Made by a program: the position numbers and the translations under genes
Shown: in pieces, positions 1,435-37,743 of the stretch
Position numbering within the stretch: position 1 is the first letter of the stretch
Layout: every line of letters starts with the position of its first letter
NCBI RefSeq assembly: GCF_021372645.1
Contig: NZ_JAJFUC010000075.1
Coordinates: 1-48,879, forward strand
Origin: Clostridium sp.
Lineage (GTDB): Bacteria; Bacillota; Clostridia; Clostridiales; Clostridiaceae
Direction of reading: 5' to 3'
DNA: 48,879 nucleotides
The notes under the pieces: generated by a model
Told to the model about the DNA's origin: nothing
The model's database searches: none
What the model saw: only the letters and a program-made list of their open reading frames with translations

Positions 1435-2295
1435 ATGAGAAAATTTATATGTATAGTCCTTGGAATGCTACTAGCCTGCATTTTCATATTACCAGTTTCT
1501 TATTGTAATGCAGAAACTACTACTACAAGTGAAGCTAGTAATAGTAAAGTGTATGATTTACAGCAGAATGCTTTTAAATATTATCAAGTTAAGCATAAAG
1601 GAGCTTTAGGAATTCCAATTTCATGTTCATGCGCAGAATCTGAGGCAGGAGATATTAGAAAATATACAGTAGAGCCCAAGTATTCTGAATCCATTAATGG
1701 TAATAAGGTTGAAATAACTATTTCACAAGTTAATGTTACTGGTTCAGCTGATAACTTTAGTTCAATTTTGAAAGACAATAAGTATATAAAGAGCATAAAG
1801 CTAGATAAACTTAATAGTAATACAGTAAAAGTTGATATTGAGACTTCTGGAAAAATAGATATTAAAATCAATCTAGTAAAAAGAAGATATTCTCCATTAG
1901 GAGACAATAAATATGAATTTAAAACTTTTATAGATGTTACTTTTAAAGAAAAAGTTAAAGATAATTCTAAAATAATAATTATTGATCCTGGTCATGGGGG
2001 TTCAGAGCTTGGAACGACAGCTAATTTTACTTATGAAAAGCAATTAAATTTAGATATATCTAAAAGAGTAAAAGAAAATCTTGAAAAAGCAGGATATCGT
2101 ATATATATAACCAGAGATGATGATAGTAATGTAGGATTATTGGATAGAACAGATCCCGCAAATCTTTTAAATGCAGATTTATTTTTCTGTATACACAATA
2201 ATTCACTTCCACTAGATGTAAATATGCAATGTGTTTATATGTTTAGAGGAACTACGGTACTATATAATTCAACTGCACCAAAACCAGGAAGATAA
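1435..2295 (+). pseudogene. Truncated secreted N-acetylmuramoyl-L-alanine amidase (Amidase_3)
   Basis: A signal peptide (MRKF, hydrophobic core, cleavage near residue 26) leads into an AMIN-like beta-rich region (about 85-165) and then an Amidase_3 catalytic domain. That domain shows the zinc-site motifs IDPGHGG (about 183-189) and IHNNS (about 252-256). The family normally continues another 80-100 residues to a catalytic Glu. Here the frame ends soon after APKPGR at a TAA, at the point where a second coding sequence takes over in another frame. The enzyme therefore lacks its last catalytic element and is probably inactive. It would have cut the amide bond between MurNAc and the stem peptide outside the cell. 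The break could be a deletion scar or a one-base sequencing error. Confidence 0.75.
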
Positions 2296-3316
2296 TCAGC
2301 CACTAACTGAAGGTAATTACAAAGTTATGATTTTTGTAAAGAAATCTTCAACTAATGGAATAGATCAAAACTCATATGGTACTTATGACAAAATATATAA
2401 TTTTAATTTTACCTGCTATAACAGTTCAAATGCTCCTAAAAATGATGATTCAAAGGTTTCTAATTCATCAGGTAACATTGTAAACGATGTGATGGCTGTA
2501 GAAGATGATGATTATATATATTATATAAACAGAGTTGGAGATATTTATGGAGCAGCCCCTGATTATTTATATAAAATGAAAAAAAATGATCCGCCTAGGA
2601 AGGATTTGTGTGACTTAAGCTATAATACACAAGTAATTACAAATAGAGTATGGAATCTTAATCTTGTAGATGACTGGATTTATTATAGTAATTGGAAGGA
2701 TCCTTTTCATCATAGTATAAATAAAGTTAAAAAAGATGGAACAGAAAACACATGTATAGCAAATGAGGTAACAGGTAATATGTTTTTAGAGGGAAATTGG
2801 ATATATTATGTTAAAAGAACTAACTCCCATTCAATTGATTTAAATAATATATACAAGATATCCTTAGATGGTACTTGTAGAATAAAGCTTAATTCTAGTG
2901 CTGCAGAAGATATGACTGTAAGTAATGAATGGATTTATTACACCAATATATCTGATGGATATAAAATCTACAGAATGAAATTAGATGGCAGTGAGAATAC
3001 AAAAATTTGTGATGATGAAACGTTATTTATGACTGTATGCGAAGATACTGTATTCTATAGTAATAAGTCAGATGATAATAAGTTATATAAAATAAATGGA
3101 GATGGGACTGGAAAAGCGAAATTATCTAATAACAAATCTACATTTATAAATGCAAGTCATGATTATGTTTATTATGTAAATTATTCAGACAATGAAAATC
3201 TTTATAAAATTCCAGTTAGTGGAGGAAAATCTGAAAAAATCACTAATGAGTATGGAACTAATATAACAATTCTAAAGGATAAAATATTTTTTGATAACAT
3301 GTTTTACAGAAAATGA
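2231..3316 (+). pseudogene. Beta-propeller (DUF5050-like) repeat protein, 5' end missing, fused out of frame to the amidase
   Basis: The frame begins at a GTG with no ribosome binding site inside the amidase gene, so the natural start is lost. From about 2300 the protein has a short Y_Y_Y-like strand segment (GNYKVMIFVKK) and then at least five repeats of a WIYYxN...IYKxxxDG type: DDWIYYSN, GNWIYYVK, NEWIYYTN, DTVFYSN and HDYVYYVN. This is the pattern of clostridial DUF5050 cell-surface propellers, where the repeats form blades of an extracellular binding domain. A one-base shift near 2270-2295 would join it to the signal peptide and amidase domain. I read the pair as a deletion fusion of two surface-protein genes. 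Confidence 0.65.
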
Positions 3317-3720: not shown

Positions 3721-4101
3721 TTAATTGCATTTATGGCACTCAGTTAATTTACCACTTTCATTTATCGAACCGCAATTAATTACTTTGCTTCTTAGTAAAG
3801 TTCTACAATTCTGCATCTTATGGTAGTGTTGCCCTTGTGGCGTCCAATATACAATCTCTTCATCTGGTATATTAGTGCATTCTATTAGCTTATTTTCATC
3901 ACTTTTAGAATTTTCTTGGATAGATGTCTTTACTGTTTCCTCTTGGACTTGTACATTATTTTCTTTGAATATGCCTAGTGGCAAGTTCTCAATTGTTGTT
4001 ATTACTATTTTACGTCTTAAAATACCTGTTGCATAAAGTAAAAATATAACTCCAAGTATTACTGTGAGTAAAAGTAATACTGTTAAAGAATCTCTTATCA
4101 T
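3721..4101 (-). CDS. Small membrane-anchored protein with a C-terminal Cys/His metal-binding-like domain
   Basis: The protein has 126 residues: one N-terminal transmembrane helix (about 6-26, no signal cleavage site), a polar linker (about 45-82), and a compact C-terminal domain. That domain has the pattern VYWTPQGQHYHKMQNCRTL then ECHKCN at the C-terminus. The YWT-G--YH---NC-TL ... C--C arrangement is common at the ends of Gram-positive surface or membrane proteins and resembles an Ada-type or ComEC-linked small zinc-binding fold. The Cys/His set suggests a metal or disulfide-stabilised domain; the role is unknown. A good AAGGAG lies upstream of the ATG. The gene stands alone. Confidence 0.6.
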   Translation of the reverse strand: MIRDSLTVLLLLTVILGVIFLLYATGILRRKIVITTIENLPLGIFKENNVQVQEETVKTSIQENSKSDENKLIECTNIPDEEIVYWTPQGQHYHKMQNCRTLLRSKVINCGSINESGKLTECHKCN

Positions 4102-4351
4102 TTGATTTTCTCCTTGTTAAAACACTGTTTCTTAATTAATTAAATATAATACAAAATTATATAACTATCTCCAATTTTATATTATATTTCATTTATATGA
4201 AATTGGATATAGTTATTTTTAAAATACTTTTTTTATGAAATTCTTAGTTGAACTTATACCCTCAAGAGGCACAATGTCCAGGAGCGTTCAGCCGTTATCT
4301 GCATTTATTTATAAATTTAACTAAAATTTATATTTCGCGTCAGAAAATTAG

Positions 4352-4482
4352 ACTTAAGAATGAATAGTATATTGAGAGTATAACACTCCTAACATACTAT
4401 ACCCATTTAAATAAAATACCCTGTAAAGTTGAATTCTTAAGTTTATACTTGAGATATATGTAGACTATACGGGGTATTTTTA
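4352..4482 (+). promoter_or_regulatory. Candidate RNA switch: alternative hairpins ending in a terminator
   Basis: ACTTAAGAAT 4352-4361 pairs perfectly with ATTCTTAAGT 4433-4442, enclosing a second stem ATAGTAT 4364-4370 / ATACTAT 4394-4400. A terminator-like stem AAAATACCC 4413-4421 / GGGTATTTT 4472-4480, running into TTTTTATT, cannot form together with the long outer stem without a knot, because its 5' arm is inside that stem and its 3' arm is outside. Mutually exclusive folds before a T-tract are how riboswitches and attenuators work. It could equally be a structured small RNA. I do not recognise an aptamer. The first genes downstream are the decayed gene at 4610 and the operon at 4994. 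Confidence 0.4.
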
Positions 4483-4609
4483 TTATGCTTATAAGCCAGT
4501 AGAAACAAAAAATATATATAATATCTAGTGGTATATTGCATATTTATTTGAAATATTTGGAAAGAACTTACCTACTTTGGTATAATTAATATATAAAGGG
4601 GATGAGAAT

Positions 4610-4813
4610 ATGAACTAAGATGTAAAAATAATATTGGAATTAATGAAAAACATGATAAGCTATAAATTTGAAGGCGTTGTTATCCCCAAATTATTAGATT
4701 AGAGACAAATAGGAATGAGCATTGAGGAATTTGATGAAGCAATTAGGTATATACAAGATAATGGGCTACTTGAAAATGTAGTTCCTATAAATGAAAGAGA
4801 CGTAGAAAAATAG
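4610..4813 (+). pseudogene. Decayed small gene with two in-frame stops
   Basis: A ribosome binding site (AAAGGGGATGAG) precedes ATG 4610. The frame then runs 67 codons to TAG 4811, interrupted by TAA at 4616 and TAG at 4700. Ignoring these, the product reads coherently: ILELMKNMISYKFEGVVIPKLL, a break, then RQIGMSIEEFDEAIRYIQDN, GLLEN and further residues. The helix-turn-helix-like flow and length recall small YjcQ-type winged-helix proteins, but that is only a resemblance. The two stops in otherwise protein-like sequence mark a dead gene. Confidence 0.55.
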
Positions 4814-4993
4814 GATTCTTTTTTAATTCAAGTTAGTTTAATAATTAAATATAAATGTTTAAAAGTATATTATTGGTATCAATTCAATATAATTGTAAAG
4901 TAATGGTAATAATTAGAGTTTACTAGAAACAATAAAAAAGTTAAGAATCAAACACAAAGAATATTAAAAAAGAAAAGATGGAGGAATTAATTG

Positions 4994-6262
4994 ATGATAG
5001 AAAATGAATTAAGTAACGAAGGTAAGTTTCCTTTTAAATATGATTATTTAGTTTGGTGTCTTATGAACCAGATTCTTATATTAGAAGCAGTTTTAAATGA
5101 AGAAAAGCAAACTTTAGAAACTAAAGTTAGAAGCAATTGGAGTAAATACATTTCTACTGAAAAATATTCTTTAGAGAATATAGAAAAAGAATGTAAAAAC
5201 AATATTAATTCAGAAATTAAAAATTTAAAGTATGATTTTTTAAATAATGAGGGATACCTTGAAATAAAGAATATAAAAAAAGAAGAACTCTATATATTAT
5301 CAAGTTATTTAAGAATAATGATTTTAATAAATGAAAATAAATTTGAAGGTAATAGATCTAATGATATAAAACTTAAATTTGATTGTATATTAAGTGAATG
5401 TAATTTAAAAAATCATTTAAATATACTACAACTAGAGAAACTTGGTAACATAATAAATTTATGTTATAAAAAAGAGTTTAATTATAGGATTATAAACGAA
5501 TTATTTAAAGGGAGAATAGATTTAATAAAACAAAAATTAGCAGAGATTGAGACATTTATTCCAACAGAAAAATTAAAAGGTTCTATAGAAGCAACTATAG
5601 TTGCTGTTGAAAAAGTGGACAATGAGAAAACAGTTGATGATTTATTAGAGCATATTTTAGAAAGTAGTAAGATACTTAAGGAGAAATTAAAAGAACAAAG
5701 TAAGCAGGGCACAGAAAGTAAGAATATTAATTCTAAATATAATGAATTAAAAAATGAATATGAAAGAGTTAAATATGAGAAAAATATTTTGTCAATGAAA
5801 ATTGCAGATTATGTGAAAAAACTTAGTGAAGAGGGACGAAAATATTATCAATTATCTAAGGAAAGTAAGATTAACGAAGAAAATGCCTATTTAAAAGGTA
5901 TAAGGGATATGTTTAAATGTTTAAATGATCCTGAAAATCTTTTCATTGATAAGATAAATGCTTGTATTAAAGAACAGGAAGATTTAAATCTAAATGATAT
6001 GAAAAGGTTATCAACAAATCTTATTTATAATCTTGAAAATTTGGGGATATTACAAAATCCAGAATTTGATTTTAATAGTAAATTAACAGTTAGTGAAAAG
6101 GAGATTGAAATCTATAGATGTAATAAAGCTTTAGCTGATGAAATAATTGAGAATAAAGAAAATCAGGTTAAAATAAAATATCCTTCATGGATATATATTA
6201 ATACTGCTTTTTCAAATAAGAAGACAGTCTTATTAAACCCAATGATAACAAAGGGGGAGTGA
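4994..6262 (+). CDS. Coiled-coil protein with a GrpE-like C-terminal region; first gene of chaperone/nuclease operon
   Basis: The protein has 422 residues and is largely alpha-helical, with a long charged coiled coil (about 225-300: KILKEKLKEQSKQ, NELKNEYERVKYEKN). The C-terminal 130 residues recall GrpE: a helix pair (YLKGIRDMFKCL; LSTNLIYNLENLGI), an FDFNSKL segment where GrpE has its FDP-HEA turn, and a final beta part ending TVLLNPMITKGE where GrpE ends in L-PA-V. In known systems GrpE is the nucleotide-exchange factor of Hsp70, and the next gene, 2 nt away, encodes an Hsp70. The GrpE assignment is my inference. ATG 4994 has GGAGG 9 nt upstream; TTG 4991 is an alternative start. The N-terminal 200 residues have no recognised domain. 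Confidence 0.55.
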   Translation: MIENELSNEGKFPFKYDYLVWCLMNQILILEAVLNEEKQTLETKVRSNWSKYISTEKYSLENIEKECKNNINSEIKNLKYDFLNNEGYLEIKNIKKEELYILSSYLRIMILINENKFEGNRSNDIKLKFDCILSECNLKNHLNILQLEKLGNIINLCYKKEFNYRIINELFKGRIDLIKQKLAEIETFIPTEKLKGSIEATIVAVEKVDNEKTVDDLLEHILESSKILKEKLKEQSKQGTESKNINSKYNELKNEYERVKYEKNILSMKIADYVKKLSEEGRKYYQLSKESKINEENAYLKGIRDMFKCLNDPENLFIDKINACIKEQEDLNLNDMKRLSTNLIYNLENLGILQNPEFDFNSKLTVSEKEIEIYRCNKALADEIIENKENQVKIKYPSWIYINTAFSNKKTVLLNPMITKGE

Positions 6263-6264
6263 AA

Positions 6265-7977
6265 ATGACCAGAGAAAAAGGAAATATAATAGGCATTGAT
6301 TTAGGTACCACTAATACAGTTGTTGCTAAGGGCCAAAAGCATATTTATGGTTTTGGAGCAACTACAATAGAGATTCCACAACGTGATGAAACAGGTAACA
6401 ACGTAGTTTTCAGTAAAGGTTTTGCCTCTGTATTATATAAAAGAAAAGGTGAAAAAATAGTAGAATCTGGATTATTTGCAAAGGCACAAAAGATAAATCA
6501 ACCATTGAGAACCATATATAATACTAAACGATATATGGGACTTGAGCATACGTGGAAAATTGATGATATGGAGTTTAAGGCTAGAGATGTTGCTGCTGAA
6601 ATCATTAGAGTATGTAAGTTGCAATCTGAAAAAACATTTGCAAATAGACAAATAGATGGAGTGACAATATCAGTACCAGCTTCATTTACCAATGACCAAA
6701 TAAGAGATACAAAAATTGCAGCACAAAAAGCGGGCTTTAAAGAAGAACAAATAAATATAGTTACGGAACCAACAGCAGCATTAATATCTTATATAAATGA
6801 ATTATCTCTTCAAGATGAAAGTGATAGGGAAATAGATTTTTCTATTATTAAGAGAATTCTTGTATTTGATATAGGTGGTGGTACATGTGATGTATGTATT
6901 GTAGATGTTGAGCAAAATGGAATTAATATTTCTTTGAAGCAAAAGGGTGTTGGAAGATATGAAGAACTTGGTGGTATTGATTTTGATGAAAGAGCAGCTG
7001 AATTTCTATTTAATAAATACCTAAATGAAAACTCAATTAATCCAAAAATTTTAAGTATGAAAGAAAGAGCTGTTATAGAAAATAAATTAGTTGCATTTTG
7101 CGAAAGAGCTAAGGAAAAATTTTCAAGAGATATAGAACTATTTGGAGATATTCTGAATGATGAAAAATTGAAATATGAATATATTTTTGAACGCTTTTAT
7201 GATGAAAAGGATGAAAAGTTCTCCATTACCAAAAAAGAATTTGATACAGCAACAGCATCACTTTATTTTAAACCTAAGGTGAAGATAAAAGACTCAACTC
7301 AGATATCAAGATATAAAAACATAGAAGAGCCAATAATAAAAACATTAAAAGATTACAATATTGATGTAAATTCAATTGATTATGTTTTTTTAACTGGAGG
7401 AATGTCTCAATATAAAAACATAAAAGAACGAGTTTTAGAAATAATGAAATTAAATGAAAATAGAATAATTGTCGCACCTAATCCTATGGATGCTTGTGCT
7501 ATAGGAGCTGCAATATATCATTATTATTCTATAGATATAGATAAAGTTAATGAAAAAATAATAATAGATCCTGAACCTACTGAGTTAAATCAAGAAGGTA
7601 CAAGTATAATCGATAATCCAATAACATCAGAAGCGATAATGATTGATTTGGTGAAAGGTTTACCTAAAATTGTAATTCCCAAAGGTACTCAAGTACCCTG
7701 TGAGGGAAAGATAATAGGAGAGTTTAGAACAGCAAGTCCTTCGGGAATAAAGATTAATTTATATGCTGGAGATAATGAATTGGATTCAAAGATGAGAATT
7801 CAAAGAGCTTGGAGAGGAAGTTTCGATCCTCCAGTAAAAATAGGAACTCCTGCTGATATTTATTATAAGATAGATAAATTTAAAGATTTGACATTTAAAA
7901 TTGTTGTTAATGATGGATTATGTGATCAAGAATTTGAGTTATCATCAGAAACTGATATTAAATTTGAGAATGAATAG
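6265..7977 (+). CDS. Hsp70/DnaK-like ATPase without lid domain
   Basis: The protein has 570 residues. The actin-fold ATPase domain has the phosphate-1 motif GIDLGTTNT (10-18), phosphate-2 VFDIGGGTCDV (about 203-213) and the adenosine motif VFLTGGMS (about 375-382). All key ATP-site residues look intact. The C-terminal part (about 455-570) resembles only a beta-sandwich substrate-binding domain (IPKGTQVPCEGK, FDPPVKIGTPADIYYKI). The helical lid and the EEVD or disordered tail of housekeeping DnaK are missing, and there is no dnaJ next to it. This is therefore a specialised, probably partner-dedicated Hsp70 and not the cell's general chaperone. ATG 6265 is chosen because AAGGGGGA lies 7 nt upstream; GTG 6259 is too close to that site. 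It sits 2 nt after the GrpE-like gene. Confidence 0.85.
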   Translation: MTREKGNIIGIDLGTTNTVVAKGQKHIYGFGATTIEIPQRDETGNNVVFSKGFASVLYKRKGEKIVESGLFAKAQKINQPLRTIYNTKRYMGLEHTWKIDDMEFKARDVAAEIIRVCKLQSEKTFANRQIDGVTISVPASFTNDQIRDTKIAAQKAGFKEEQINIVTEPTAALISYINELSLQDESDREIDFSIIKRILVFDIGGGTCDVCIVDVEQNGINISLKQKGVGRYEELGGIDFDERAAEFLFNKYLNENSINPKILSMKERAVIENKLVAFCERAKEKFSRDIELFGDILNDEKLKYEYIFERFYDEKDEKFSITKKEFDTATASLYFKPKVKIKDSTQISRYKNIEEPIIKTLKDYNIDVNSIDYVFLTGGMSQYKNIKERVLEIMKLNENRIIVAPNPMDACAIGAAIYHYYSIDIDKVNEKIIIDPEPTELNQEGTSIIDNPITSEAIMIDLVKGLPKIVIPKGTQVPCEGKIIGEFRTASPSGIKINLYAGDNELDSKMRIQRAWRGSFDPPVKIGTPADIYYKIDKFKDLTFKIVVNDGLCDQEFELSSETDIKFENE

Positions 7978-7990
7978 GAGAATTAAGGGT

Positions 7991-9595
7991 ATGAGTATAA
8001 TGGAAGATAAATTTAGAGAAGCTTTAGCAACAAGTAATAATTTTAGGCTTTCTGCTAACGAGGAAATTTCTCCTTCTACAGGAGCACCTCCTACAAATGA
8101 AAGTGAAAATAGATTATTTATATGGCAATTTGATGTTACTGATATAAGATCTTTGGTTTCTTATTTTAATGAAATTAGTCATGCAGAATTTAATAACTCT
8201 AAATTTAGAAAGATAAAAGAAGACTTAAAATCAATTGGAAAAGATATAGAAAAGAATAATGTTTATCCAGTAGAAGCAATATTGTATGCATCAAAATTAA
8301 TTAATAATAGATTAACAGATTTAAGTTTAAGAGTGTGCTTAGCTGAGGTTATAGAATATTTCCTTGTAAGAAATGAAGTTAAAGGAGAAAAGGTAATAAG
8401 ACATATATGTAAAAATTGGACGTGGAGTAACCAACAAAAAATATCAATTTTAGCAGCAAAAGCATTAAATAATATGGACATACTATCTTTAATTTATAAT
8501 GAGTTCCACGATAGGAGTGAAGTTAAATTAGAATGTTTTACAACTCTTCTTATGTCAGGAAATGAAGAAGCATTAGATATGATATTAAATATGGTTTGTA
8601 ATTTGAATAGTGATTATGAGGTAGACATTCAAATCGGAAACTTATTTTCAAATAAGTTTGAAGAAAAATTTTTAATAAAAGGAGTTAAGGCTATACAGGA
8701 TGTAAAAAGTTCAAGACCTGGAATAACTCGTTTTGGAAGAAGGGTTCTTGATAGAATTGCTGTAGAATTATCAGGCACAGATATGAAACCAGAGGGTAGC
8801 AATCTGTCAGAACTTATACAAATAGCAAGAAGTGGTATAAAAAATAATGAAGATTACTTTTCAAAAAATTTTATTGCAACCAAAAACAAAAGAAAAAGTG
8901 CTTTGCTTGCTCTTAGATATTCAACTGATAAAGATTATGCTTCTAAATTTTTATATGAATTATATAATAAAAATAAGACTAAAATTGATAGTGATGATAT
9001 AAAAGATACTGCATTATCATTGGCTTTATTGGGAAGTGATAAAAGTATAGAAATTTGTAGAACTAATAAAAATATTACTGATATTAAACCTTATGAATGG
9101 GGAGCTAGAATAATATTAGGTGATGATTCTGTATCTGATTTTTTGGCTAAAGATTATTTTGAAGAAAAAATTGGGAATATAAGTGATTATAAAAAAATAA
9201 TTAGAGGTTGTATAAATAGAAATAAAGCTTTAACAGGAAAAATAGAGAAGAGATTTAAAGAATTAATAGTTCAAGCTAATGAAAGTGATTTTTGCAAATA
9301 TTTAAAGATAATTAAGACTTTCATAAGGGAATATAATAATATAGCCTCAAGACAAATTATTTTAAACATGATAAATGATAAGGAATCAAGTTTATATAAA
9401 AGGATTATTAAATCAAGTTTAATGCAAAATGCTATAATTAATACATTGGGTGATTTGGTTAATGAAGATACTATAAAGCTTTATCAAAATACATTATTCC
9501 TTATAGCAAAAAATCCAGACTTTAATATTAAGATAAAAACAAAGGCAAATAGCATTTTAAAGGATTATATTCCACCATCAGAGTTGGAAGCTTAA
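7991..9595 (+). CDS. Alpha-helical repeat (HEAT-like) protein of the Hsp70/beta-CASP operon
   Basis: The protein has 534 residues. A polar, Ser/Pro-rich N-terminus (about 1-45) is followed by a run of paired amphipathic helices through to the end, of the kind found in HEAT/ARM scaffolds: KISILAAKALNNMDILSLIY, KLECFTTLLMSGNEEALDMI, DTALSLALLGSDKSIEIC. I see no catalytic motif, so a scaffold or substrate-adaptor role between the Hsp70 upstream and the nuclease-fold enzyme downstream is likely. It starts at ATG 7991, 13 nt after the hsp70-like stop, using GGAG 7977-7980 (ATG 8000 is possible). Its TAA abuts the next ATG directly, which implies translational coupling. I do not recognise a named family. 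Confidence 0.6.
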   Translation: MSIMEDKFREALATSNNFRLSANEEISPSTGAPPTNESENRLFIWQFDVTDIRSLVSYFNEISHAEFNNSKFRKIKEDLKSIGKDIEKNNVYPVEAILYASKLINNRLTDLSLRVCLAEVIEYFLVRNEVKGEKVIRHICKNWTWSNQQKISILAAKALNNMDILSLIYNEFHDRSEVKLECFTTLLMSGNEEALDMILNMVCNLNSDYEVDIQIGNLFSNKFEEKFLIKGVKAIQDVKSSRPGITRFGRRVLDRIAVELSGTDMKPEGSNLSELIQIARSGIKNNEDYFSKNFIATKNKRKSALLALRYSTDKDYASKFLYELYNKNKTKIDSDDIKDTALSLALLGSDKSIEICRTNKNITDIKPYEWGARIILGDDSVSDFLAKDYFEEKIGNISDYKKIIRGCINRNKALTGKIEKRFKELIVQANESDFCKYLKIIKTFIREYNNIASRQIILNMINDKESSLYKRIIKSSLMQNAIINTLGDLVNEDTIKLYQNTLFLIAKNPDFNIKIKTKANSILKDYIPPSELEA

Positions 9596-11347
9596 ATGAA
9601 TATTAATGATGTTATAAAGGATGATAAAAAATATAATCCTTGTAATTTTGAAAAGGAATTTTATCTTAATTCTAATGATTCTATTTTGCCAATTTTAGTT
9701 TTTTATAGTTATCTTAATAAAGAGTATTTAAAGTGCATATGTTATAGTGAAAAATGCAAACATCAGTCAATTTCAATAATATACCATATATTATCTTTGT
9801 TTAAATTAGGCTATAAACATGAAAGTTATAGAATGTTTATTAACTATAAAGAAAGTATTAATGATTTTGTTTATAATCCAATAATAAAAAATCATATATT
9901 ACAATGTTTCTTATTATTTAAAGATGATGGATTAAAAAGTGTAATTAGAAGTTTTAATGAAAGTGTTTATAAGGAAATATATATATTTTTTATTAGTATA
10001 GTTAATAATATTAATATTGAAGAAAACATAAGGTCTTTAGAAAATATGTTATATGAAAGTGAAAAACTAGATATAAGATATATTATTAGTAGTATTTTAG
10101 GCAAATTTAAAGATGATAAATATTCTTTAATAGCCCAAAAATTAATTGATAAAAAACCAAAGGAATATGAAAAAGAAGATTTTAAATTAAATAAAGAATG
10201 TAGAATATATAGTTCTTTTGATTATGAAGATGATAATTATACTATATTATCATATAAATCTCAGCATATGATGAACATGCATTTAATAGAATACAAAAAT
10301 AATGTACTTATTATAGACTGTGGAGCTTCTATAGAGAGAGAGTGTTATATTAATAAAATTAATGTAAAAGAGTTTTTTGAAAAAAATAATATAAGTATAA
10401 ATTGTATTCAAGGAGTTCTTATAACCCACGCACATTTTGATCACTATGGTAGTTTAAATGAGCTTACTAAATACAATATCAAATGCTATATGACTTTAGA
10501 GACAGAACAATTAATAAGAAGAACTAATAAAGATTTTGTATTTAATAATGTTACAATAATAGATGATAATGAGAACTTTACTTTAGGGAGATTTAAAATA
10601 AAAGCATTTAAGAATGGGCATATATTAGGATCTGTTGGATATATAATTGAGGGAAATGAAAAAAGAATTATGATTACTGGTGATTTTTGTCTAAATAATC
10701 AGAGTTCTGTATTAGGAATGAACCTTAAAGATAAAGGTAAAATAGATTATTTAATTATAGAAACCACTTATGGAGATAAAAAATTTAGTTTAAGTTATTT
10801 AGATAGAATGAAAAGTATAAAAGAAATAGTAAAGTCATCTTTAAAATATGGAATACAAGTTCTGATACCATCTTTTGCGATTGGACGAGCTCAAGAAGTA
10901 GCAAAGATATTAGAAGATTTAAGTAAAGAATATAAAATTTTAATCGATGGTAATGCTACAGAGATAACAAAATATTACTTGAAAAATTCATTCCTAAAAA
11001 TTAATAAAAATATAGATATTAATTCTTGTTATGGTATTCGGGATAATTTGAATATATATGATATTATAATATGTAGTTCTGGAATGCTAAATAAAGGAAG
11101 TAAATCTGAACAATATTTAAATTATATTCAAAATGATAATATTCATAGTAATTATACTGTAATTAAAGTTGGATATATACCTGAGCATAATCAAGAATAT
11201 AAAGATTTAATGTTTTATGATTCAATAAATGTAAACTTATTTGATATAGGATTATCAGCACATGGAACTTATAATCAGTTAATAAAAACTATAGATTTAT
11301 TAAATCCTTCAGTAGTTATACAAGTTCACGGAAATGGTATAAAATAA
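9596..11347 (+). CDS. Beta-CASP metallo-beta-lactamase (predicted RNase/nuclease) with helical N-terminal extension
   Basis: The protein has 583 residues. The first 200 or so are helical with no known domain and two Cys-containing segments (KCICYSEKCKHQ). A metallo-beta-lactamase domain follows: motif 2 THAHFDHYG (H278, H280, D282, H283), GHILGSVGYII, and motif 4 ITGDF. Then comes the beta-CASP part with LIETTYGD, IPSFAIGRAQEVAKIL, a CSSGML segment, LSAHGTYNQL and the terminal VVIQVHG. This order matches the CPSF73/Ysh1 and archaeal/bacterial beta-CASP nucleases, which cut RNA (or DNA) using two zinc ions. All metal ligands appear present, so it should be catalytically active. It is the last gene of the operon, starts at the base after the preceding stop, and is followed by a terminator. 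Target RNA or DNA is unknown. Confidence 0.85.
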   Translation: MNINDVIKDDKKYNPCNFEKEFYLNSNDSILPILVFYSYLNKEYLKCICYSEKCKHQSISIIYHILSLFKLGYKHESYRMFINYKESINDFVYNPIIKNHILQCFLLFKDDGLKSVIRSFNESVYKEIYIFFISIVNNINIEENIRSLENMLYESEKLDIRYIISSILGKFKDDKYSLIAQKLIDKKPKEYEKEDFKLNKECRIYSSFDYEDDNYTILSYKSQHMMNMHLIEYKNNVLIIDCGASIERECYINKINVKEFFEKNNISINCIQGVLITHAHFDHYGSLNELTKYNIKCYMTLETEQLIRRTNKDFVFNNVTIIDDNENFTLGRFKIKAFKNGHILGSVGYIIEGNEKRIMITGDFCLNNQSSVLGMNLKDKGKIDYLIIETTYGDKKFSLSYLDRMKSIKEIVKSSLKYGIQVLIPSFAIGRAQEVAKILEDLSKEYKILIDGNATEITKYYLKNSFLKINKNIDINSCYGIRDNLNIYDIIICSSGMLNKGSKSEQYLNYIQNDNIHSNYTVIKVGYIPEHNQEYKDLMFYDSINVNLFDIGLSAHGTYNQLIKTIDLLNPSVVIQVHGNGIK

Positions 11348-11398
11348 ATTGATTTTTAGAATTTTAAGTGTTTAGTTTAGAATGTTGAAAGTACTGAG

Positions 11399-11434
11399 AA
11401 AAGTAGGAGTCTATTAAAGATTCCTACTTTTTTA
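11399..11434 (+). terminator. Terminator of the Hsp70/beta-CASP operon
   Basis: The stem AAGTAGGA 11401-11408 / TCCTACTT 11422-11429 is followed by a run of T (11428-11433). It lies 54 nt after the beta-CASP stop codon and closes the four-gene operon. Confidence 0.8.
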
Positions 11435-11465
11435 ATCTTTAAAATTGTAATAGTTAACAAAATAT

Positions 11466-11494
11466 TTCATATTATGATAAGCTTGTGATATAAT
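11466..11494 (+). promoter_or_regulatory. Possible sigma-A promoter of the sensory operon
   Basis: TTCATA 11466-11471 and a consensus TATAAT 11489-11494 are separated by 17 nt, about 100 nt before the first kinase gene. The -10 is perfect and the -35 matches TTGACA at only four positions. This is the only good -10 in the spacer after the terminator. Confidence 0.5.
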
Positions 11495-11597
11495 TAATCG
11501 GTAAAAGTAAAAAAATAGATAAATAGGATATGATTATTAATTAGTTTGATAAAAATATAGTTAGATATTATTAAACGTGTAAGAGAGGTATTCAAAT

Positions 11598-12860
11598 ATG
11601 GTATCAGATAATTTATATACAATTTTAGTTGTCGATGATAATCAAAACAATTTATTCACTGCAAGAGCCCTTATAGGAGAATATATAAGTGCACAGGTGA
11701 TCCTAGCAGACACTTCAACAAAGGCATTACATGAACTCATGAAACATTCAGTAGATTTGATTATCTTAGATGTACATATGAAGAGTGGGATGGATGGATT
11801 TGAACTGGCAAAAATAATAAAAAGTAGAAAAAAAACAGAACATATTCCCATCGTGTTTTTAACAGCAGCTTATATAACTGAGGAGTTTAAGAAAAAAGGT
11901 TTTGAAATAGGGGCAGTAGATTATCTTACTAAACCTATCAATGACTTTTTATTCATAAACAGAATAAATGTATATTTGAAACTTATTGAAAAAGAAAGAA
12001 AAATGAATATGCGTCTGCAAGAGCAAGCTGAGGAATTAAAAAGAGCAAAAAATATAGCAGAAGCAGCTAATGAGGCCAAAGATATGTTTCTCGCAAATAT
12101 ATCTCATGAACTGAGAACTCCTTTAAATATTCTGCTTGGAACAACCCAACTAACGAAATATCATCTTGAAAATGATAAAGTTATTGATAAAGAAAAAATA
12201 TACATAAAATTAAATTCTCAGATTCAAAATTGTTATAGGCTTATAAGAATAGTTAATAATCTGATAGATATTACAAAAATAGATTCTAGTAATTTTCCTC
12301 TTAATTTATCAAACTGTAATATTGTTGAGGTTGTAGAAGCTATTGTAACATCAGTAGTGGAATATGCAGGATTAAAAAATATTAAAATAACATTTGATAC
12401 GGATGTTGAAGAGGTAATTCTTGCTTGTGATTTGGATTCTATTGAAAGAATTATTTTAAATCTTTTATCTAATGCTATAAAATTTACACCTAAAGATGGA
12501 AATATTTTTGTAAGTATTAGTAATGTTAATGATTCAGTTCAAATTAGAACCAAAGATTCAGGCATTGGAATTCCTAAAGATGAAATAAATATGATTTTTG
12601 ACAGATTCAAGCAAGTGGACAACCTTCTTACAAGGAGCAATGAGGGCAGCGGTATTGGACTTAATCTCGTGAAGTCTCTTGTTGAAATGCATAACGGAAC
12701 TATACGAGTTAATAGTGAATATAAAAAGGGAAGTGAATTCATTGTTGAAATTCCTATTAGAAAAATGAATAATGATCAAATTCCTGAAAATGTCGCTAAT
12801 AATATTTTCAATAATGTAATTTCAAAAATTGATGTAGAATTTTCTGATATATATTTTTAG
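11598..12860 (+). CDS. Receiver-histidine kinase hybrid (soluble, REC-HisKA-HATPase)
   Basis: The protein has 420 residues and no membrane segment. An N-terminal receiver domain carries the phospho-acceptor D58 in LIILDVHM and K112 in YLTKPIN. A coiled-coil linker (about 127-160) follows, then HisKA with H170 in FLANISHELRTPLN. The catalytic ATPase domain has its N-box (LNLLSNAIKFTP), G1 (DSGIGIP) and G2 (GSGIGLNLVKSL). Input comes through the receiver, so it probably relays phosphate from or to another kinase, most likely the large hybrid kinase two genes downstream. GAGAGG sits 8 nt before ATG 11598. The binding-protein gene begins 16 nt downstream with its ribosome site overlapping this stop codon. 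No DNA-binding output domain is present in this protein or in the operon. Confidence 0.9.
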   Translation: MVSDNLYTILVVDDNQNNLFTARALIGEYISAQVILADTSTKALHELMKHSVDLIILDVHMKSGMDGFELAKIIKSRKKTEHIPIVFLTAAYITEEFKKKGFEIGAVDYLTKPINDFLFINRINVYLKLIEKERKMNMRLQEQAEELKRAKNIAEAANEAKDMFLANISHELRTPLNILLGTTQLTKYHLENDKVIDKEKIYIKLNSQIQNCYRLIRIVNNLIDITKIDSSNFPLNLSNCNIVEVVEAIVTSVVEYAGLKNIKITFDTDVEEVILACDLDSIERIILNLLSNAIKFTPKDGNIFVSISNVNDSVQIRTKDSGIGIPKDEINMIFDRFKQVDNLLTRSNEGSGIGLNLVKSLVEMHNGTIRVNSEYKKGSEFIVEIPIRKMNNDQIPENVANNIFNNVISKIDVEFSDIYF

Positions 12861-24067: not shown

Positions 24068-27000
24068 CTATTTTAGATTTAGTTGTTTTTTCATGAACGT
24101 GATGTATTCAGAAAAATTCAATTCTTCTGGTAAAGGGTAATTGTCTTCATTATATTCACCATCAGTTTTACCAAGTAAACACTCAAATTGATATATTAAA
24201 AAACCATAGTAATGCTCTTTGGCTAAAGAATATCCTGTATTTACCCACTGATTATAGCTGGTGTGATTGATATATTTTAAGAATTTTGAAAAATAGTATA
24301 TACATTCTACGTAGTAATATTTAATATGTGCAAGGTTTTTTAGTGCATTCATATAATATTCTATTGCCTTCTCGTCATCCTTCTCGATAGATGCATACAT
24401 CGTGTTTTGTAGTCCTAATGTATAAGGGTTTGTTACAACTAAATTAGTAATAGTTTCTCTATCTAATGATTTTATTTTTGATTTTAAATAGTGGATTTGC
24501 ATTTTTTCCAAATGATCCTTTGGGTATATATTATCAATGTAAATTAGAAGTTCTTCTTCATTTATTTTACCTTCATTAAGATATTTTTCAAAATCAAAAA
24601 AGTCTTTTTTAGTTTTAAGTGTAGGAATTTTTGCGTATTTACCCAGTTCAAATACTGAAGCATTGTAAAGCCCTGTAACTTGAAGTTTATTATTAATTAT
24701 CCATTTGCAAAATTTAAAGGCTTCGCCCTCAAGGAAATAAAGCTCAAAAGCGGTTGCAATAATATTTTTGAATATTTCATCTTTGTTAATGATATTATTG
24801 AAGTCATTAAACGATATTATTTTCTTTAGGTTTTTAAAAGAAATATTAAAGTTTCCTAAGTAATATGATGCGCGGAGGTTACTAATTCTAATCAATAGAT
24901 GTCCATCTTCAATATCATCAAAATAACTTTCAAGTTGCGATGTCTCATTTAAGAGTATATCTAAGCACTGTGTGCGAGTACTGATTGATAGAATAAAATT
25001 TATATAGTCTAATTTTTCTAGCTTACTTAGTTTTAAATCTTCAAACTTGTTTAAATAATTAATGCTTTTTATAAAATTATTATTTTGACTGTCAAATAAT
25101 TCATAAGCAAGTATGGAATTATTTTTCAAAATAGAGGATATTTTTGATGATAAAAAACTATTATAATTATAAGCTTCTTTGTAAAATATTACTTTATTTT
25201 CTTCTAATTTCTCATTAAATTGATAATCCGCAAATCTTCTTATTATGGATTGTAATTTAATATTTCCATTGACTAAATCTACTAAAGATTTATTATCAAG
25301 AGACTTTAATTCAGCATCTTTTATTGGATTTAAAGATAAATTTTGGGAACAACTTTTAAAAAACTGCTTAAAATTTTCCATGTTAATTCCGTCAGGGAAT
25401 AAAGAAAGTAATTGAAAAGCAAGCTTTTCTTTATCATTCAATTTTTTATAAGAATAATTTATAGACTGATATAAAGATTTTGATTTTTCAATGTTTTCAT
25501 CACACTCATTAATATAAATATTGTCTTTATATTCAATTAGCGTATTAAAAAAGTCATCTTCTAATTCATGTTTTAAGACCTCGATATTTTTTCCGGGTGG
25601 TAAATTGGAAGCAACAATTCTAATAGCTAGTGGATTCTTATTAAGCAAGTTTTCTATAATATCAGATTTTAAACACTGCATTTCATCTTTTTCAATATGA
25701 TAAGGATAATGTTTCGAAAATAATTCCACTGCTTCATCTGTAGTGAAATCTCTTAAAGTATAGGCATCTTCAAACTGTGAATTAGGAAATACAATTTCTC
25801 GTGAAGTAATAACTACTGTCGCATAATCACTGATAAACTTTAAAAGTTCTTGTATTTCTAAGGAATCGTCAAGATATAATAATGTTTCAAAGTTATCCAA
25901 AATAATTAAACTATTTACATCAAGATTATTTAATTTTACATGTTCCTTAAAATTTATTGTATTATCTAATTGAAAACATTGGGCAATTTTAAGTTCAAAT
26001 TGATTATAGTTTTCTATATGTTCTAAATCGATAAAATATATACCTTGGTTAAAAAATCCTCTTTTTGAAAATTCGTAGGCACATTTTTTAGCAATTGTAG
26101 TTTTGCCAATTCCACCAGACCCCTTTATTGTAAGGATTTGACCTTTGGAATGTAAATTAAAGATTTTTCTTATTATGGTTTCTAAATCTGAATTTCTGCC
26201 AACAAAGTCTGATAGCGATTTAGTATCAATTGAATTAGGCATAGTTGTTTCAGGCTTTCCTATGTTTGCTTTACCAGGTGAAATTAAAATTGAATCTATT
26301 TTTTCTAGGTTTATATATTCAAAATTAGAAAAAACAAATTTTTCATCGTATCTTCTAAATAACTTGAAAATAACATCTTTTATATTACTCTTTTCTTGCT
26401 TATAAATGAAAAATGGATGTGAAACAGTATCTTCGATTTCTATAACATCATTTGTAAAGCAAAATATTGCTTTTAAAGCCTCACAACAAATGTTCTCTTC
26501 TAACTCTTTCAAACTTACAAAATCACTTTTGAAATATTCATCTTCTATGCATATTTTATTTTTGAAAGTTTGAGAAAATAGAATAAAATAATCATATTCA
26601 GCTAATTCTCTTAATATGTCTAAAGAAAGATGATGACAGTCTATAGATACATCTAATTTGTCAAAGTTTTTTGTAAGCTCGTTAAAACTAAATTCATATG
26701 GCTTATCAATAGGGGATGCTAGTAATAACGCAATTTTGACTTTGGGAACTTCTTGTATAGCCTTATCTAATACTTTTTCTTCTATTGTTACAGCGGTTTC
26801 TTTTATCACTGCATTTTTAGACTTTTTGACATTTACCATTGCATCCAATATTTCGTCTAAAGCCTCTCCCCAATTATCAATTTTAAGCACATCAGTGCTA
26901 TAACGACTAAAATTATCATCAGTTGTAGAGATAATAAAGTGTTTATTTATAAAACCATCAAAAACTTTAGTCATATTTTCAAAAATATTGCATACATATG

Positions 27001-27604
27001 GATCTTGCAAGCTAAAGCCTAAAAATACAATGGTGTAATCAGTGAATATCTTCATTAACTGAAAAAGTACCGATTTATCTTTAGCAGCATATAATTTTTT
27101 ATAATCTTCTTCGAATAAAATACATTTTGCCATATCCTCTAGACTGCCATGCATTTTAAGTAAATATTCATTCTTCTTAGTTAATTGTGATATTTCAAAT
27201 GATTGCGTATAAACTGTAGGTGTAATTTTAGGATTTGCAGATTCTAATGCTATATCATAATTAGTAGTTATAATTTTACTTGTTATCTCCCAGAGTTTTT
27301 TATGTCTATTTAAATTTTCATCTTTAATGGGAACTGAAAAATTTTTCTTTATAGTTTTGTATATTTCTGTTTTATCACTTTTAATTCTTTCCAATATTTC
27401 TATGGCCGTAAAAGTTTTATCTTGTAAAACAGGTATAAGATTCTTACGAGAGGGATTATCCTTTGATAGCTCATCTAGAATATTAACAACCAAATTATCC
27501 CAGTTTGGAAATCCCAAAGGTATAGAGGTTCCAGAACCTATAAAAAATACTAAAGTATCATTTTCAATTGCTTCTTTTATTTTACTATGTAATGTAATGC
27601 TCAT
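24068..27604 (-). CDS. SIR2-STAND (NB-ARC) protein with helical repeats, predicted anti-phage effector
   Basis: The protein has 1178 residues. An N-terminal SIR2-type domain (about 10-255) has FFIGSGTSIPLGFPNWDNL, N115 in TTNYD and H152 in KMHGS, the residues needed for NAD cleavage in defence SIR2 enzymes. A second alpha/beta domain follows (about 285-420). The NB-ARC/STAND ATPase has DFVGRNSDLE, Walker A GSGGIGKTT (494-502), Walker B LIILDNFE (566-573), a TSRE sensor and an NPLAIRI (GLPL-like) motif. The last 450 residues are TPR-like helices that would sense the trigger. Related bacterial NLR-like proteins detect a phage product, oligomerise and deplete NAD+. It is a single gene on the opposite strand to its neighbours, as expected for a defence cargo gene. 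A GGATGGTGA lies before the ATG. Confidence 0.85.
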   Translation of the reverse strand: MSITLHSKIKEAIENDTLVFFIGSGTSIPLGFPNWDNLVVNILDELSKDNPSRKNLIPVLQDKTFTAIEILERIKSDKTEIYKTIKKNFSVPIKDENLNRHKKLWEITSKIITTNYDIALESANPKITPTVYTQSFEISQLTKKNEYLLKMHGSLEDMAKCILFEEDYKKLYAAKDKSVLFQLMKIFTDYTIVFLGFSLQDPYVCNIFENMTKVFDGFINKHFIISTTDDNFSRYSTDVLKIDNWGEALDEILDAMVNVKKSKNAVIKETAVTIEEKVLDKAIQEVPKVKIALLLASPIDKPYEFSFNELTKNFDKLDVSIDCHHLSLDILRELAEYDYFILFSQTFKNKICIEDEYFKSDFVSLKELEENICCEALKAIFCFTNDVIEIEDTVSHPFFIYKQEKSNIKDVIFKLFRRYDEKFVFSNFEYINLEKIDSILISPGKANIGKPETTMPNSIDTKSLSDFVGRNSDLETIIRKIFNLHSKGQILTIKGSGGIGKTTIAKKCAYEFSKRGFFNQGIYFIDLEHIENYNQFELKIAQCFQLDNTINFKEHVKLNNLDVNSLIILDNFETLLYLDDSLEIQELLKFISDYATVVITSREIVFPNSQFEDAYTLRDFTTDEAVELFSKHYPYHIEKDEMQCLKSDIIENLLNKNPLAIRIVASNLPPGKNIEVLKHELEDDFFNTLIEYKDNIYINECDENIEKSKSLYQSINYSYKKLNDKEKLAFQLLSLFPDGINMENFKQFFKSCSQNLSLNPIKDAELKSLDNKSLVDLVNGNIKLQSIIRRFADYQFNEKLEENKVIFYKEAYNYNSFLSSKISSILKNNSILAYELFDSQNNNFIKSINYLNKFEDLKLSKLEKLDYINFILSISTRTQCLDILLNETSQLESYFDDIEDGHLLIRISNLRASYYLGNFNISFKNLKKIISFNDFNNIINKDEIFKNIIATAFELYFLEGEAFKFCKWIINNKLQVTGLYNASVFELGKYAKIPTLKTKKDFFDFEKYLNEGKINEEELLIYIDNIYPKDHLEKMQIHYLKSKIKSLDRETITNLVVTNPYTLGLQNTMYASIEKDDEKAIEYYMNALKNLAHIKYYYVECIYYFSKFLKYINHTSYNQWVNTGYSLAKEHYYGFLIYQFECLLGKTDGEYNEDNYPLPEELNFSEYITFMKKQLNLK

Positions 27605-36156: not shown

Positions 36157-37743
36157 TTACGAAGCTTGCTGCTTATGAAGCAGCTCACCGTTACGATTAT
36201 TTATAGTTTTACTATGAAGTTTGTTAACATTATATCCAAATGACATTAATAAAAATTCGATTTTTACATTCTTATTTCCGCGCATAAGAAATCTTCTAAA
36301 CCCATAATCTTCTTTTACTACACCAAATGCCCCCTCGACCTGAATAGATCTATTCATTCTTAAAATTATCCCTTTTGGAGTAGTAATATTTAGTAACGAC
36401 TTTTCTCTTAATCTCAAAAAATCCTTTGCTACATGCAATTGTTTATTTCCTTTGGCTTTAGTACATTTACTTTTATATTTACATTCTAAACAGCTTTCGC
36501 ATTCGTAAATTGTAATTTTAGATTCAAATCCAGATTTAGATTTTCTTATCCTAATTCCTTTTAATAATAATTTTTTTCCAGCTGCACAAACATAGTAGTC
36601 ATCATCTTTGTTATATTGCATATTTTCTCTTTTGCTAATATCATTCTTAAATTTTTTAGTCTTCGACCTTTCATATGTTTGTGGCTTAATGTATGATTGC
36701 TGTTCATTCTTCTCAAGATATGTATAATTTTCATCACTTTCATATCCTGCGTCAGCAGTTACCGCTTCATATTTTTTGTTTAGATTAGTTTGTAGTTTTT
36801 CTAGAAATGGTATAAATGTAAGTTGGTCAGATCTTTCACTTGAAATATCTACTCCAACTATATATTCACCTTCTACCCCTATTTGTACATTGTAGCCTGG
36901 TTTTAATTGACCATTTCTCATATGATCCTCTTTCATATGCATGAAAGTAGCGTCATGGTCAGTTTTTGAAAAGCTATTTCGACCATTGAAAATGCTATTG
37001 TATTCATCATATTTACTTTGTTTTTCTACAAAGTTTTCTAGAGATTCAGTGTATTTTTGAAGCTTACTTTTTCTTTTACCTTTTCCATAAACAAATTTTA
37101 TATTTTCATTTTCTTTTATTATTTTAAGCTTATTTTTTAAGATTATATCTATATCCGATGCTAAGATTTTATTATCAGAAATATCAATGTTTAAGTTGAG
37201 TTCTGAGTTCATATTCTCTAGAATCATTCTTATTTTTTCTTGTAACTTAGTTTCAAATTTCTCAATAGCTTTCTTCCAAACAAATGTATATCTATTAGCA
37301 TTCGCTTCGATTTTTGTTCCATCTATAAATATATTTTTGAATTCTATTTCATCAAGTTCGCCTAGTTTAATTATTAGTTGGCTAAATAAATCTTTGATAC
37401 AACTAGCTAGTCTTTCACTTCTAAATCGTGCTATTGTATTATGGGTTGGTGCTTTTTGACCTTGCATAAGCCATTTGAAATTGATGTCTCTATTACAAGC
37501 TTTTTCAAGTTTTCTGCTTGAATAAATTCCTTCCATATAGCCATAAATTAGTATTCTAAATAGACTTTCAGGTAAGATTGCAGGATTTCTACCTATTGTA
37601 GAGTATGCTTCATATAGTTTTGAATAATTTAGTCCCTCCGTTATTTCATAAAGCAATCTTACAGAATCGTCTTCTGGTATAATAATTTCTAAATCAATTG
37701 GGAAACCTATTTGATGCATAGGTATAATATTTTTGTTTTTCAT
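36157..37743 (-). CDS. IS1182-family transposase
   Basis: The protein has 528 residues and is full length. The N-terminal DUF772-type helical DNA-binding part is at about 20-130 (LEIIIPEDDSVRLLYEI, FRILIYGYMEGIYSSRKLE). A DDE catalytic core follows with D in IFIDGTKIEANANRYTF, D in AVTADAGYESDENY and E in MNRSIQVEGAFGVVKED. A Cys cluster (CESCLECKYKSKC) lies before the last catalytic residue. It cuts and joins the element's ends. No ribosome site precedes the ATG; a CATAAT sits 8 nt upstream of it, so expression may be leaderless or very low. The gene fills the IS and shows no frameshift. Confidence 0.95.
   Translation of the reverse strand: MKNKNIIPMHQIGFPIDLEIIIPEDDSVRLLYEITEGLNYSKLYEAYSTIGRNPAILPESLFRILIYGYMEGIYSSRKLEKACNRDINFKWLMQGQKAPTHNTIARFRSERLASCIKDLFSQLIIKLGELDEIEFKNIFIDGTKIEANANRYTFVWKKAIEKFETKLQEKIRMILENMNSELNLNIDISDNKILASDIDIILKNKLKIIKENENIKFVYGKGKRKSKLQKYTESLENFVEKQSKYDEYNSIFNGRNSFSKTDHDATFMHMKEDHMRNGQLKPGYNVQIGVEGEYIVGVDISSERSDQLTFIPFLEKLQTNLNKKYEAVTADAGYESDENYTYLEKNEQQSYIKPQTYERSKTKKFKNDISKRENMQYNKDDDYYVCAAGKKLLLKGIRIRKSKSGFESKITIYECESCLECKYKSKCTKAKGNKQLHVAKDFLRLREKSLLNITTPKGIILRMNRSIQVEGAFGVVKEDYGFRRFLMRGNKNVKIEFLLMSFGYNVNKLHSKTINNRNGELLHKQQAS

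Follow-up and report, generated by a model that had tools for sequence, protein, structure and literature searches.

A conserved four-gene cassette predicted to encode a lidless Hsp70, a putative GrpE-like partner, a helical-repeat protein, and a beta-CASP nuclease in Clostridium sp.

The cassette and its four products

The stretch of DNA analyzed here ("the window") is the entire 48,879-nucleotide (nt) contig NZ_JAJFUC010000075.1 (C55) of Clostridium sp., from a draft genome of 3.12 Mb in 105 contigs that is 93.5% complete. Four open reading frames (ORFs), termed genes A, B, C, and D, lie head to tail on its plus strand at positions 4991–11347; all gene and motif coordinates below refer to that strand. 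The intergenic gaps, read off the sequence and measured from the ATG starts, are 2 nt (A/B), 13 nt (B/C), and 0 nt (C/D), as the initial annotation of the locus had it. The four genes thus have the layout of one transcription unit. The cassette is a real, conserved four-gene machine that has apparently not been described before.

Gene B (6259–7977; start GTG at 6259 or ATG at 6265) encodes a 572-residue protein with a Pfam HSP70 match (E = 6.5e-36) confined to the nucleotide-binding domain (NBD). The ATPase residues D14, T17, T18, K90, E170, D204, and T209 were invariant in all 14 genomes compared. The C-terminal 120 or so residues (ca. 454–572, nt 7618–7974) matched a profile of the beta part of the DnaK substrate-binding domain (SBD-beta) with a probability of 94 and an E-value of 1.3e-7; 81 DnaK-like sequences were found for that profile, and 30 were used. 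Because the protein ends where the lid of DnaK would begin, with SBD-alpha absent, it is lidless. B is therefore a member of the Hsp70 superfamily in which an NBD with its ATPase residues and an SBD-beta are present and the helical lid is absent. It scored 128.5 bits against the NCBIfam DnaK model, which has a cut-off of 648, and the HscA and PRK11678 cut-offs were also far from reached. The DnaK proteins of the same genome are 24–28% identical to B and are encoded elsewhere, each with its own grpE. No J-domain HPD motif was found in A–D, and a YH..HPD[KR]-type pattern had no match in the six frames of the window.

Gene D (9596–11347) encodes 583 residues. An N-terminal region of ca. 220 residues, which had no Pfam match, is followed by a metallo-beta-lactamase (MBL)/beta-CASP/RMMBL nuclease (Pfam Lactamase_B_2, 1.7e-12; RMMBL, 2e-4; Beta-Casp, 0.015). 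Among 14 members of the family, RMMBL was matched in all and Beta-Casp in eight. Ten catalytic or metal positions were checked, and all were invariant in the 14 genomes: D241 of MBL motif 1 (10316–10318); H278, H280, D282, and H283 of motif 2 (HAHFDH, residues 278–283, 10427–10444); H342 of motif 3 (10619–10621); D363 of motif 4 (10682–10684); E389 (10760–10762); H556 (11261–11263); and H578 (11327–11329). The last three we take to be beta-CASP motifs A, B, and C, respectively. With MBL motifs 1–4 and beta-CASP motifs A–C in place, D has the sequence features of a beta-CASP MBL nuclease. Three descriptions in the initial annotation, namely an Hsp70 with intact ATP motifs but no lid, the lack of dnaJ, and a beta-CASP metallo-hydrolase with all metal ligands, were therefore borne out.

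The solved structures that scored highest with D were Cas14 (2e-49), archaeal CPSF/FttA, INTS11, and CPSF73. RNase J came behind these (2e-19), and the first DNA-repair enzyme stood ca. 40 orders of magnitude in E-value below the top of the list. Because of these relatives, RNA rather than DNA is the probable substrate. A separate beta-CASP family, its members mostly of ca. 800–920 residues, occurs in Clostridia and relatives (L041–L051, L067–L084, L243, L244) and was also matched by D. Neither the 11 loci L041–L051 nor the 18 short loci L067–L084 (1.5-kb flanks) contained A–C; since no B or C adjoined the D-like gene in eight of the 14 places examined in a search of the phylum (see below), and no Hsp70 was seen beside the members examined, these proteins were treated as another family.

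Gene C (7991–9595, ATG at 7991) encodes a putative helical (HEAT-like) repeat protein. Positions of an N-terminal LF...F motif were invariant in the seven sequences compared. The window copy had no HEAT match, no Pfam match above the curated cut-off, and no convincing match in the PDB, and HEAT_2 was matched in just one of seven C members, at 0.25. A distant homologue in L235, detected with the C profile (E = 4e-29), matched HEAT_2 at 5e-15. The earlier label "HEAT-like" is thus supported by that homologue and not by the window copy itself.

Gene A (4991–6262; 423 residues; start TTG at 4991 or ATG at 4994) encodes a variable N-terminal region, a coiled coil, and a GrpE-like C-terminal part (ca. 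residues 267–422, nt 5789–6256). It is the most variable of the four, with 13–38% identity between the window copy and 12 relatives. A profile was made from the window copy and 14 relatives, and a GrpE profile of 218 columns was made from 30 genomes. The profile of the last 215 residues of A aligned with columns 111–217 of the latter, i.e. the C-terminal half of GrpE, with both ends reached. The score for these 15 sequences was 31.8 (E = 6e-4), above that of all 449 shuffled controls; the control maxima were 24.0 for 149 column shuffles, 25.9 for 150 shuffles in seven-column blocks, and 31.4 for 150 shuffles in twenty-one-column blocks. With a gene of Ureibacillus (L178:7804-9405) added as a sixteenth sequence, the score rose to 37.2 (E = 8e-5, probability 60.6%; highest control 33.7). 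That gene had joined the set for the GrpE-like look of its place and end, a biased selection, and the comparison was therefore redone without it, yielding the E-value of 6e-4 given above. By itself, the Ureibacillus gene did not match the GrpE profile (probability 0.2, score 12.8), nor did it match the A profile at an E-value of 1. The likeness of the C-terminal end of A to GrpE is considered probable but not settled.

Distribution and inheritance

The order A-B-C-D was found in 17 distinct genomes: those of the window and L063, 13 from a scan with a segment of B, and L231 and L232. Within the host order, the C profile matched sparsely (7 of 225 genomes), and all seven genomes hold A-B-C-D in that order (window, L039, L040, L061, L062, L063, and L064; the A gene of L040 was assigned by its place and its similarity to other A genes). 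The 70-residue segment of B was scanned over 84,980 genomes and gave 26 loci. Thirteen had the complete cassette, and five of these were in genomes already counted among the seven of the order; in one locus (L176) the sequence breaks off before A, another (L178) is rearranged, and 11 contain other Hsp70-like genes only. The complete loci include those of Caloramator australicus, Clostridium bornimense, Thermosyntropha lipolytica, Faecalimicrobium dakarense, and Romboutsia species. In the 11 loci for which gaps were measured, neighboring genes are -23 to +35 nt apart. The Thermosyntropha and window copies are only ca. 20% identical in C and ca. 27% in D, yet the gene order is kept. A-B-C-D is thus a real conserved unit whose order is fixed over deep divergence, far beyond one species, which answers the co-occurrence check proposed with the initial annotation; chance clustering of unrelated genes is ruled out by the conserved order. 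In the loci L180–L190, Hsp70-like proteins mostly of 327–350 residues (the ORF in L184 has 1172) share the B signature, and no A, C, or D match was found in the locus.

Searches with D gave further arrangements. Among 398 genomes of the phylum, 32 matched at an E-value of 1e-45. Fourteen places in 13 of these genomes (G909 supplied two) comprised two with A-B-C-D (L231, L232), four with D-B-C (L233–L236), and eight without B or C; the D hit in G757 is the Thermosyntropha locus L169, judging by coordinates. Across 391 genomes of the class, searched with an earlier D model, the cassette was found in the genome of the window only, and 18 places in 16 other genomes had no A, B, or C within 1.5 kb. 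In both searches at most three candidates per genome were scored, so members may have been missed. In L233–L236, the D-B-C set is followed by a coiled-coil gene (ca. 320 residues), a gene of ca. 500 residues, and one of ca. 230 residues resembling a membrane protein; the flanks are similar in all four.

The rearranged locus of Ureibacillus acetophenoni (L178) has the order D-A'-B-C', in which A' and C' were assigned by place. Its C-like gene did not match the C profile, and the variant is recognized by its gene order together with B, D, and HEAT_2. The region L178:583-14293 encodes, in turn, a TPR-cold-shock protein (TPR-CSD), a PDC-M16A-like helicase, D, a 533-residue protein with an end that is GrpE-like by eye, B, a HEAT protein, and a coiled-coil protein.

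Across 14 genomes, the pairwise identities for B, C, and D were closely correlated with one another (Pearson 0.92–0.96, Spearman 0.65–0.88) and less so with those of the housekeeping DnaK of the same genomes (Pearson 0.68–0.80, Spearman 0.21–0.44). For A and B, the correlation over 10 genomes was 0.87 (Spearman 0.51). These comparisons indicate that B, C, and D are jointly inherited. The B protein of Caloramator is 58% identical to that of Thermosyntropha and 47% identical to that of the window, a preference not mirrored by its DnaK (70% and 73%, respectively). In the DnaK tree the host family forms one clade (support 100/99), whereas the D tree rejects the family as a single clade (approximately unbiased (AU) test, p = 0.009). 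Caloramator and Thermosyntropha pair in the B (70/98) and D (80/80) trees, but without strong support, and the tree program warned of long branches. Horizontal transfer of the unit is judged likely on these sequence comparisons, though it is not proved. A foreign base composition was considered and rejected: the cassette (22–30% GC) is as AT-rich as its flanks, and there is therefore no evidence of recent import.

Relation to known systems and possible function

No description of the A-B-C-D set was found in the literature searched (most subscription journals lie outside it), in PADLOC, or in NCBIfam. A known operon with the same four families, which the initial annotation had named as a refuting condition, was thus not found there. 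The nearest familiar arrangement is the hrcA-grpE-dnaK-dnaJ operon, in which GrpE-type and Hsp70-type genes are likewise adjacent. A standard heat-shock operon was rejected, as had been argued initially: the cassette lacks hrcA and dnaJ, B is not a DnaK equivalog, and the genome has two grpE-dnaK loci (L052 and L053) separate from the cassette. One we take to be hrcA-grpE-dnaK, the other grpE-dnaK-dnaJ accompanied by a winged-helix-like gene.

Partial likenesses were found to predicted conflict systems. In type III CoCoNuT systems (CnuD/CnuCD), which are related to McrBC type IV restriction, an Hsp70-like NBD/SBD with HEAT-like repeats stands beside an RNA-directed nuclease. CnuD, for which RNA binding is proposed, has McrBC and HEPN partners, and its Walker-A-like motifs are degenerate, so that ATP hydrolysis is thought to be scant, according to the excerpts available of that report (PMC11090510). 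The proteins A–D had no Pfam match to the McrB GTPase, McrC/DUF2357, or HEPN; cassette B keeps its ATPase residues, the nuclease is of the MBL/beta-CASP type, and a GrpE-like gene is present. HSP70 is found with GrpE in GAP1-N2 GTPase-centric conflict operons, with Firmicutes among the hosts, as stated in the accessible part of another report (PMC7159879). The cassette has HEAT-like and beta-CASP genes instead of a GTPase and an FNIII-DnaJ gene, and no GTPase match was found in A–D or in the window ORFs scanned (28 of the 40 with at least 100 residues).

Type VII CRISPR-Cas (clustered regularly interspaced short palindromic repeats) is linked to the cassette through Cas14, the highest-scoring solved relative of D and likewise a beta-CASP enzyme, which acts on RNA within a multi-protein machine (PMC11786720, in part). 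D is below the Cas14 equivalog cut-off (94.6 bits vs. 800), and neither Cas5 nor Cas7 was found among the window ORFs scanned, the cassette included. Compared with Cas14, D is extended at its N-terminus and stops shortly past the RMMBL motif; the match ranges suggest that it has no counterpart of the ca. 200-residue C-terminal part of Cas14. Among eukaryotic proteins, symplekin and INTS4 are HEAT proteins. A scaffold protein with a beta-CASP endonuclease is the layout of the cleavage modules CPSF73-symplekin and Integrator INTS11-INTS4, as far as the portions consulted describe them (PMC10688271, PMC9525679). The likeness is one of layout only, since these modules are eukaryotic and have no Hsp70 or GrpE. 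The novelty would thus be one of architecture: the parts belong to known families and the machine does not, and for each of four known kinds a defining feature is missing here.

The cassette has defense-like neighbors in some lineages. In L231 and L232 it lies inside a CRISPR region, with arrays starting no more than ca. 0.3 kb from D and further ones at most 10 kb away on the opposite side; the repeat copies number 77 and 154 in these genomes (up to two mismatches), and in one of them cas8b and cas5b adjoin the cassette. In Thermosyntropha (L169), BrxC/D-like ATPase genes are directly upstream (Pfam 2e-24 and 5e-20; PADLOC BrxD 1e-18 and 2e-16). In L178, the TPR-CSD (PADLOC 5e-51) and helicase (2e-153) genes are upstream of D. 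Gene A of L166 is preceded by a macro-domain gene (6e-29) and by a gene whose vWA match is weak (0.003, below the cut-off). The two L166 neighbors have no PADLOC match; those in L178, L169, and L231 do.

The best reading of these data, which we hold tentatively and at somewhat less than an even chance, is that of a chaperone-gated, CPSF/Cas14-like ribonuclease for defense or stress. D would be a beta-CASP endoribonuclease held on the helical-repeat scaffold C, and the ATP cycle of B would set the active or bound state of C-D, with A as a dedicated GrpE-type exchange factor. That role for the cycle is inferred from gene linkage: a chaperone with an intact ATPase has stayed together, over such divergence, with a scaffold, a protein resembling an exchange factor, and a nuclease whose catalytic residues are intact. 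ATP-bound B would be open; its SBD-beta would capture a peptide, probably one belonging to C or to the N-terminal region of D, and hydrolysis would lock the complex. A would meet the trigger via its variable N-terminal part and speed ADP release, which would free or re-arm D for RNA cutting. Since A evolves fastest of the four subunits, it is the best candidate for a sensor. The lack of both a J protein and a lid suggests that B serves a single dedicated client and not protein folding in general. The specialized HscA and HscC no longer need an exchange factor, according to the part of the source available (PMC8215388), and a dedicated GrpE-type partner would therefore suggest regulated exchange. 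The cell probably uses the cassette to degrade RNA, either against phages or in response to stress. Chaperone-mediated phage sensing has a precedent in DnaJ for bNACHT25 (PMC12169576, in part). That the four proteins form a physical complex, that the ATP cycle gates the nuclease (as the initial annotation proposed), that A is the sensor, that RNA is the substrate, and that the cassette serves defense are all inferred, and the evidence for defense is suggestive only.

A number of observations weigh against this reading or parts of it. No Pfam GrpE match was found in A, whether in the window copy or in seven members, and the A profile reached 27 PDB sequences (E-values up to 10) with no GrpE among them. 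The hhalign probability for the 15-sequence profile was a modest 28.6%. An earlier 13-sequence profile scored 27.4, a value reached by none of 149 column shuffles, none of 150 fine block shuffles, and two of 150 coarse block shuffles (highest 30.8). Of the original description of A as a coiled-coil protein with a GrpE-like end, the end has a profile match above controls and no Pfam or PDB support, and it is the weakest-supported structural claim. The four D-B-C loci gave no match to the A profile, so the presence of a GrpE-type partner is not universal. With respect to transfer, the B tree is compatible with the host family as a single clade (AU p = 0.158). Cargo of phages or plasmids was rejected: C had no plasmid match, and no relative of D turned up when viral contigs were scanned by pattern. 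Of the viral-contig relatives of B (at least 555), the best 80 were searched by tblastn, without a match to A, C, or D. D is matched by 38 phage records, with 22–32% identity among the 20 matches listed and none of these covering 80% of its length.

The defense context is affected as well. A–D themselves had no PADLOC match at an E-value of 0.1. The cassettes of L231 and L232 are 97–98% identical in B, C, and D and were therefore counted as one event, and the defense-like neighbors amount to a list of cases rather than a statistic against background. Flanks are common to seven Peptostreptococcaceae-type loci, on one side or both; these are presumably genes of amino-acid and selenium metabolism. 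The D-B-C set follows, in four genomes (two in single contigs), what we take to be genes of glycerol/dihydroxyacetone metabolism (dihydroxyacetone-kinase-like), and in C. bornimense and Caloramator the neighbors of the cassette are, we assume, ordinary ones. The kept flanks and metabolic sites are stable sites unlike typical defense islands. A proximity to defense genes, suggested as a check at the outset, thus holds for some lineages, while in others the cassette occupies a metabolic site.

The same stable sites fit the main rival, a dispensable complex for the processing or quality control of RNA, which we consider possible though rather unlikely. D and C would act like CPSF73-symplekin or INTS11-INTS4 on cellular transcripts or ribonucleoproteins, A and B would load, remodel, or recycle them, and there would be no defense role. 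The highest-scoring relatives of D and the scaffold-plus-beta-CASP layout of the eukaryotic modules agree with it. Such a complex is harder to reconcile with a distribution as patchy as 7 of 225 genomes, the signs of transfer, the fast divergence of A, C, and D relative to DnaK, and the defense-like neighbors in several lineages. Instead of acting as a chaperone, B might be a platform that binds RNA or ribosomes and is switched by ATP, as has been suggested for CnuD, and might together with C recruit D to its RNA target. The recurrence of Hsp70 with HEAT-like repeats in CoCoNuT, the missing J-domain motif, and the absent lid are consistent with this, whereas the motifs of CnuD are, in the excerpts available, degenerate and B keeps every tested ATPase residue in 14 of 14 genomes; moreover, a partner with a GrpE-like end, present in most loci, fits an ATPase that turns over. 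We therefore regard a mere platform as improbable. Least probable is that D cuts no RNA and is a DNA nuclease or other hydrolase, the cassette then serving DNA repair or metabolic stress. Some beta-CASP enzymes do act on DNA, and DRMBL was matched in five of the 14 D members (at best 0.0018); nevertheless, RMMBL was matched in all 14, and DCLRE1A, Apollo, and Artemis are far down the PDB list, behind the RNA-directed enzymes by the E-value margin given above.

If the chaperone-gated reading holds, the cassette may represent a new class of immune or stress machine, a doubtful prospect at present, in which a private Hsp70/GrpE-type cycle, not a second messenger or guide RNA, releases a CPSF-like ribonuclease and GrpE is re-used as an infection sensor. 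Textbooks treat Hsp70 and GrpE as housekeeping proteins. A portable copy tied genetically to a CPSF/Cas14-type nuclease would mean that RNA destruction can be switched by chaperone cycling; bacterial immunity would gain a trigger mechanism, and the eukaryotic scaffold-plus-beta-CASP cleavage modules a bacterial parallel. With two active sites, four genes, and thermophilic homologues, the cassette is a directly testable case.

Surroundings of the cassette in the window

A terminator-like hairpin lies 3' of D at 11399–11433 (plus strand; 14-bp stem, 5-nt loop, ca. -17 kcal/mol). It has a run of six T residues, four of them within the stem, and a scan for consensus terminators found no such site in 4000–12200, this hairpin included. 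A promoter scan gave 69 sites, compared to 65.4 ± 7.8 in shuffled sequences. The nearest flanking genes, at 3721–4101 and from 11598 onward, belong to other families or had no match in Pfam.

The initial annotation had placed the cassette in an accessory region with broken genes, which was borne out only in part. One gene does look disrupted: an Amidase_3 match in 1435–3316 ends at position 91 of 174, the overlapping second frame has DUF5050, and the amidase ORF (1435–2295) appears truncated. As to the accessory character, a single transposase was found among the ORFs scanned, of the insertion-sequence DDE type (36157–37743, minus strand) and 25 kb from the cassette. A 1178-residue protein with SIR2_2 and NB-ARC (STAND) domains, a defense-like architecture, is encoded on the minus strand at 24068–27604, 12.7 kb downstream of the cassette.

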